This document shows, piece by piece, positions 1,246 through 1,320 of a stretch of 64,000 nt of DNA. This DNA comes from a virus: positions 1 to 64,000 of the IMG/VR virus record IMGVR_UViG_3300042892_004016, one strand, 5' to 3'. Made by a program: the position numbers and the translations under genes. Below the pieces are notes generated by a model that saw nothing but the letters and a program-made list of their open reading frames with translations, searched no databases and had not been told where the DNA came from. How positions within the stretch are numbered: position 1 is the first letter of the stretch; the number at the start of each line of letters is the position of its first letter.

Positions 1246-1320
1246 TTAACGATTGGCGATGTACATTGTGATTTCAAAACCAAAACGTAGATCAGTTGCT
1301 TGTGGTGTAGTCCAGTTCAT
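1246..1320 (-). CDS. pqqA: PqqA, coenzyme PQQ precursor peptide
   Basis: A 24-residue peptide, normal length for PqqA (22-29 aa). PqqA is the ribosomal substrate of PQQ synthesis: PqqE, with chaperone PqqD, cross-links a Glu and a Tyr, and the excised pair becomes pyrroloquinoline quinone, cofactor of methanol and glucose dehydrogenases. The diagnostic pattern is present: N-terminal NWTTP, then DLRFGFE, then Glu16-x3-Tyr20 in FEITMY, ending IANR. This closely follows proteobacterial PqqA peptides, which have WxxP, D(L/M)R(L/F)G(L/F)E, VT-Y and NR at the end. A strong ribosome site, AAGGAAAT, precedes the ATG. It lies 128 bases after the porin gene on the same strand and just before the terminator. 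No pqqB-E genes are visible, so host enzymes would have to process it. Family assignment is firm for so short a peptide; function during infection is inferred. Confidence 0.87.
   Translation of the reverse strand: [24 protein letters not shown]

Follow-up and report, generated by a model that had tools for sequence, protein, structure and literature searches.

The window, a stretch of 64,000 nucleotides (positions 1 to 64,000 of the 115,894-bp IMG/VR virus record IMGVR_UViG_3300042892_004016), carries a minus-strand, phosphate-related cassette that runs from a BPL_N-domain gene through metallophosphoesterase, glycosyltransferase, PstS and porin genes to pqqA, its last gene, which encodes the precursor peptide of the cofactor PQQ. 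The features are, in window coordinates:

1204–1229, minus strand: terminator-like hairpin after the pqqA stop, AAAAAUCCACC-UGAG-GGUGGAUUUUU (fold z = -3.7)
1246–1320, minus strand (reads 1320→1246): pqqA, 24 codons from ATG to TAA, PQQ precursor peptide (PF08042 and TIGR02107)
1328–1333, minus strand: Shine-Dalgarno sequence AAAGGA, 7 bases upstream of the pqqA ATG
1448–2854, minus strand: phosphate-selective porin O/P (PF07396, E = 6e-42), directly upstream of pqqA
2851–3864, minus strand: PstS phosphate-binding protein (TIGR00975, 404 bits)
3991–4989, minus strand: family 4 glycosyltransferase, cassette member (PF00534, E = 8e-22)
5074–5898, minus strand: LpxH-like metallophosphoesterase, cassette member (PF00149; NF003743 partial, below cut-off)
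5956–6600, minus strand: BPL_N-domain protein, first gene of the cassette (PF09825)
58419–60191, plus strand: portal protein, gp20 (PHROG 213, E = 2.6e-110; 53% identity to PA5oct)

The 24-residue ORF is encoded by the minus strand, a detail not given in the sequence-only reading, and matches both Pfam PF08042 (40.6 bits, cut-off 21.1, E = 2.3e-10) and the NCBIfam equivalog TIGR02107 (37.8 bits, cut-off 20, E = 1.2e-9). It is the single PqqA match in the whole 115,894-bp record, and the same profile search returned no PqqA match in 14 control genomes. In known PqqA, Glu16 and Tyr20 are the residues that are turned into PQQ; the viral peptide has both, with three residues between them (Glu-x3-Tyr). 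This spacing and 23 of 24 residues are shared with cellular PqqA (Oxalobacteraceae copies L141 and L145), from which the present gene differs in being phage-encoded and in having no pqqBCDE alongside. By profile match and retained residues, the ORF is a bona fide PqqA, and the sequence-only observation of a PqqA-type ORF with a ribosome site was confirmed. The hairpin 3' of the stop has 11 bp and a U run, and 2 of 200 shuffled sequences folded equally well. It was not among the sites reported by a consensus terminator scan, probably because the T run sits within the stem.

The carrier had been described as a T4-like phage, which is broadly right (gp23 profile match in the record, E = 9.7e-102) and can be made more exact: the portal is nearest to those of the jumbo phages PA5oct (53%) and Atu_ph07 (49%), so the record is a fragment of a jumbo myovirus, here a large freshwater virus. 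Beyond the cassette, the 115,894-bp contig is a T4-like structural genome. A 25-kb part of it had no relative in the phage collection by megablast, and profile searches of the phage record found neither PqqE nor a PQQ alcohol dehydrogenase, including methanol dehydrogenase, over cut-off. The metallophosphoesterase and family 4 glycosyltransferase (window 3991–6600, minus strand) resemble a plcP-agt pair, the lipid-remodelling pair of phosphate-starved bacteria; here the similar pair is on a phage and adjoins PstS and the phosphate porin.

In a rival explanation, pqqA would belong functionally to a phosphate-acquisition cassette in this lineage; PQQ would go to a glucose dehydrogenase and the acid products would free phosphate, acting with PstS and the OprO/P-type porin. 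The gene follows porin and PstS directly on the same strand, and the porin-then-pqqA order is kept in four relatives (L236, L238, L239 and L240). Yet in the porin-lineage relatives L082, L214 and L260, pqqA and the porin are kilobases apart or on different strands, the pqqA genes of methylophages occur in other contexts, with the cassette absent from the regions read, and no PhoB box was found above chance. We therefore regard this explanation as unlikely. Other parts of the neighbourhood also recur: a BPL_N-domain protein is encoded near pqqA in L082, L214 and L374, and metallophosphoesterase identity among pqqA-bearing relatives is 71–96%. The nearest relative seen, L082, has a porin at 73%, PstS at 69% and metallophosphoesterase at 96% identity, and pqqA is present.

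Genes encoding PqqA are widespread in viral contigs. IMG/VR was scanned twice with degenerate DNA motifs, which yielded 77 and at least 119 PqqA-encoding loci, respectively, on at least about 196 contigs in all; one candidate, L018, was dropped as a chance motif match. Among the matches listed, 173 distinct viral sequences have invariant Trp, Pro and Tyr at positions outside the search motif, with four codons used for Pro and two for Tyr, and an SD-like 4-mer precedes the start in 168 of the 173, compared with 10.7% of control ATGs. Co-occurrence was assessed in 42 records (41 longer contigs plus this phage). All 42 had PqqA and nine had gp23, but none gave a match above the cut-off for PqqE or for PQQ alcohol dehydrogenases, so these copies look like orphan phage genes rather than parts of bacterial operons.

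The gene is also present in cultured phages. A tblastn search with the PqqA peptide against 50,697 phage records (E up to 10) gave 12 matches, comprising nine Methylophilales phage genomes (P19250A, four Melnitz genomes, MEP301, Venkman, MEP401 and MEP402), one spring podovirus and two mislabelled bacterial-assembly records; the tally does not include the Methylophilales phages MEP431–434 and is not a claim on all cultured methylophages. The two matches labelled ‘Acinetobacter phage MD-2021a’ were rejected, since their pqqA lies upstream of pqqBCDE in bacterial DNA. One such GenBank contig (L206, CAKLQF020000010.1) carries ppk and pqqABCDE and is bacterial chromosome under a phage label. All cultured-phage pqqA genes examined start with ATG behind a good ribosome site. 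The pqqA site is without any annotation in P19250A, MEP301, Venkman, MEP401 and MEP402, and is overlain by an opposite-strand ‘hypothetical’ ORF in Melnitz and the spring phage (L201, Melnitz-1, record positions 74848–74953; L205, MW202481, 2067–2195). The expectation that so short a gene would escape annotation thus proved correct in the nine cultured Methylophilales phages, where it is unannotated or masked, and viral PQQ genes are unmentioned in the published papers on Melnitz, MEP301 and MEP401/402. Relatives that infect other hosts (SAR11 for HTVC008M and Mosig, Roseobacter for CRP-4 and CRP-5) were in the collection but gave no pqqA match. The cultured methylophages resemble the present phage in carrying an orphan pqqA of the same family with a strong ribosome site, but their peptides are of the Methylophilaceae type (for example, TEMRFGFEVTMYVMNK) and they belong to phage groups unrelated to this jumbo phage.

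As the motif scans fix the motif, selection was retested on loci collected through the porin, which keeps pqqA from selecting itself, and on columns outside the motif. The porin bait returned 53 viral loci. PqqA was over cut-off in 16 of the 42 porin-bait records searched and, among the 12 records of the porin lineage that are 60 kb or longer, in 11. Among the porin-bait relatives, pqqA has a pN/pS of 0.12; across independent pairs, 17 changes are synonymous and 13 non-synonymous, although non-synonymous sites make up 79% of the total (P = 2e-5). The ratio is 0.20 among the isolate copies, and Glu and Tyr are retained in every porin-bait relative and isolate copy examined. By these substitution patterns, viral pqqA is under purifying selection. 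On the points by which the sequence-only reading had proposed to be judged, computation thus gave a significant PqqA-profile match with short-ORF relatives in other phages, conserved Glu and Tyr, and an excess of synonymous change.

Purifying selection also bears on whether the gene could be a passenger, either a functionless recent capture from the host or host DNA contaminating the contig. The peptide is near-identical to Oxalobacteraceae PqqA, as such an origin would have it, and collections do contain misassigned contigs, the bacterial ‘Acinetobacter phage’ record among them. However, the low pN/pS, the presence of pqqA in nearly all long records of the lineage and in cultured phage genomes, and the lack of PqqE and dehydrogenase genes over cut-off in the 42 co-occurrence records contradict a passenger gene, to which we assign the lowest probability of the explanations considered. 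On sequence grounds, pqqA here qualifies as a phage auxiliary metabolic gene, being host-like, recurrent and carried by a bona fide phage genome.

The best cellular matches found for PstS were in four Oxalobacteraceae genomes (64–71% identity), and the phage PqqA is one residue away from two Oxalobacteraceae copies. The host is therefore likely to be an Oxalobacteraceae bacterium and not an obligate methylotroph. Methyloversatilis, whose PqqA differs by two residues, was considered as host and rejected because it has no homologous PstS; the porin was uninformative (best match 44%). PQQ alcohol dehydrogenases are present in the Oxalobacteraceae genomes examined; copies in G577, G584, G592 and G588 contain a WDYDG motif, which we take to mark the lanthanide type. 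One of these genomes, G577, has two pqqA genes (L092 and L124) with no pqqB recognised among nearby ORFs, a case of separate pqqA copies outside Methylophilaceae as well. In an order-wide search, bacterial pqqA was found in 78 of 399 genomes, several with three to eight copies. The methylophage-type peptide occurred at 96–100% identity in genomes of 1.3–1.4 Mb, which presumably belong to Methylophilaceae. A ‘family’ search based on G042 was rejected as a Methylophilaceae sample because it returned multi-megabase genomes with Burkholderiaceae-like peptides. Separate pqqA copies are common in hosts (PMC4109929, PMC9851590), and Methylophilaceae carry 3–12 copies beside one pqqBCDE (PMC4109929).

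PQQ synthesis destroys one PqqA for each PQQ made. With the precursor consumed one for one, gene dosage matters and extra template could raise or sustain PQQ, and the 3–12 pqqA copies of Methylophilaceae against one pqqBCDE make dosage of the consumed precursor the likeliest function. That so many unrelated viruses on PQQ-using hosts carry pqqA likewise argues that they probably top up a host cofactor in infection. We accordingly consider it probable that this is a functional viral pqqA that feeds precursor to the host pathway and raises or sustains PQQ supply during infection. We infer expression of the viral peptide, its processing by host PqqDE, a higher PQQ flux and the enzyme that benefits, as follows. 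On infection, the phage would make the 24-residue precursor, which host PqqD would hand to host PqqE for cross-linking of Glu16 and Tyr20, and host PqqB and PqqC would complete PQQ from the cross-linked peptide. The extra template would thereby raise or keep up PQQ supply, and periplasmic PQQ alcohol dehydrogenases, probably of the lanthanide type, could stay charged during host gene shutdown. Experiments in bacteria give a mixed picture of template limitation. Overexpression of pqqAB in Acetobacter increased PQQ by 29% (PMC7936290). Work in Methylovorus cited in PMC9851590 found that PQQ synthesis depends mainly on a single pqqA copy and that PQQ rose only to a limited extent when the operon was overexpressed, so in some cases template may not be what limits PQQ.

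A peptide of this kind could instead act as a decoy that occupies PqqD and PqqE, so that host PQQ falls and periplasmic oxidation is shut down. PqqE is not co-encoded, which would suit an inhibitor, but a decoy would be free to lose its quality as a substrate, and the substrate Glu and Tyr are retained in all copies examined. The phage peptides match host-type PqqA, being identical or nearly so, which also speaks against inhibition, and we judge a decoy very improbable. Precursor supply, the reading we prefer, agrees with part of what the sequence-only reading had proposed, namely that extra copies could keep PQQ-dependent methanol dehydrogenase running. Supply of precursor is the best explanation, and hosts multiply pqqA and not the rest of the pathway; methanol as the substrate was overstated, as methanol dehydrogenase is found in none of the 42 records. 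With an Oxalobacteraceae host likely, and not an obligate methylotroph, the methanol-dehydrogenase link is only plausible for this phage.

Viral PqqA has been reported before, contrary to the earlier statement that no well-established phage pqqA was known. A T4-like methylophage population from Lake Baikal, VP_266, encodes PqqA with methanol dehydrogenase (Coutinho et al. 2020, PMC7678222), and viral pqqA, pqqD and pqqE are listed from reservoir sediments (PMC13188868). The present phage and VP_266 are both T4-like, infect bacteria that use PQQ and encode a PqqA proposed to boost the cofactor. VP_266 encodes the dehydrogenase and was assigned to Methylophilaceae, whereas the present phage has no dehydrogenase, belongs to a jumbo lineage, probably infects Oxalobacteraceae and carries pqqA in a phosphate cassette. 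A broader likeness is to cyanophage pstS and other auxiliary metabolic genes, which are host-derived and sustain metabolism in infection; those genes encode reusable proteins, whereas PqqA is a consumed substrate whose supply is stoichiometric. Within the open-access literature, four points appear to be new: how widely the gene occurs, that cultured phages carry it unannotated, that it is found in a jumbo lineage whose host is probably not methylophilacean, and that there is evidence of selection on it.

Taking these results together, we lean towards a general rule in which pqqA ranks with the most frequent of the metabolic genes that have been overlooked in phages on PQQ-dependent proteobacteria. 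It would have been captured repeatedly by unrelated lineages (small podoviruses and siphoviruses, Kyanoviridae and jumbo phages), gained with the switch to methylotrophic hosts (Melnitz versus Mosig/HTVC008M, and MEP401/402 versus CRP-4/5) and selected as a ribosomally made, consumable cofactor precursor that phages and hosts amplify by gene dosage. What was one paragraph of the 2020 metagenome paper would thus become a testable general rule, for which cultured pairs already carry the unannotated gene (Venkman or Melnitz with OM43 strain H5P1, and P19250A with IMCC19250). Medium used for OM43 has included PQQ at 1 nM (PMC9004378). The findings suggest that viruses sustain a cofactor through a ribosomal precursor instead of an enzyme. 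They also suggest that infection by viruses could affect how methanol is turned over in lakes and coastal seas, and that genes such as pqqA stay hidden when annotation sets a minimum ORF length.

Two further observations concern individual copies. Within 8 kb, megablast-level similarity between Venkman and the spring phage is limited to 85 bases around pqqA (L203:3985–4069 against MW202481:2107–2190), which are 90.6% identical in otherwise dissimilar phages; this suggests either exchange of pqqA between phages or strong local conservation. A 94.5-kb viral contig (G016) carries two different intact pqqA genes (L420 at 4117 and L421 at 74312), one of which has an unusual DARFGFE motif.
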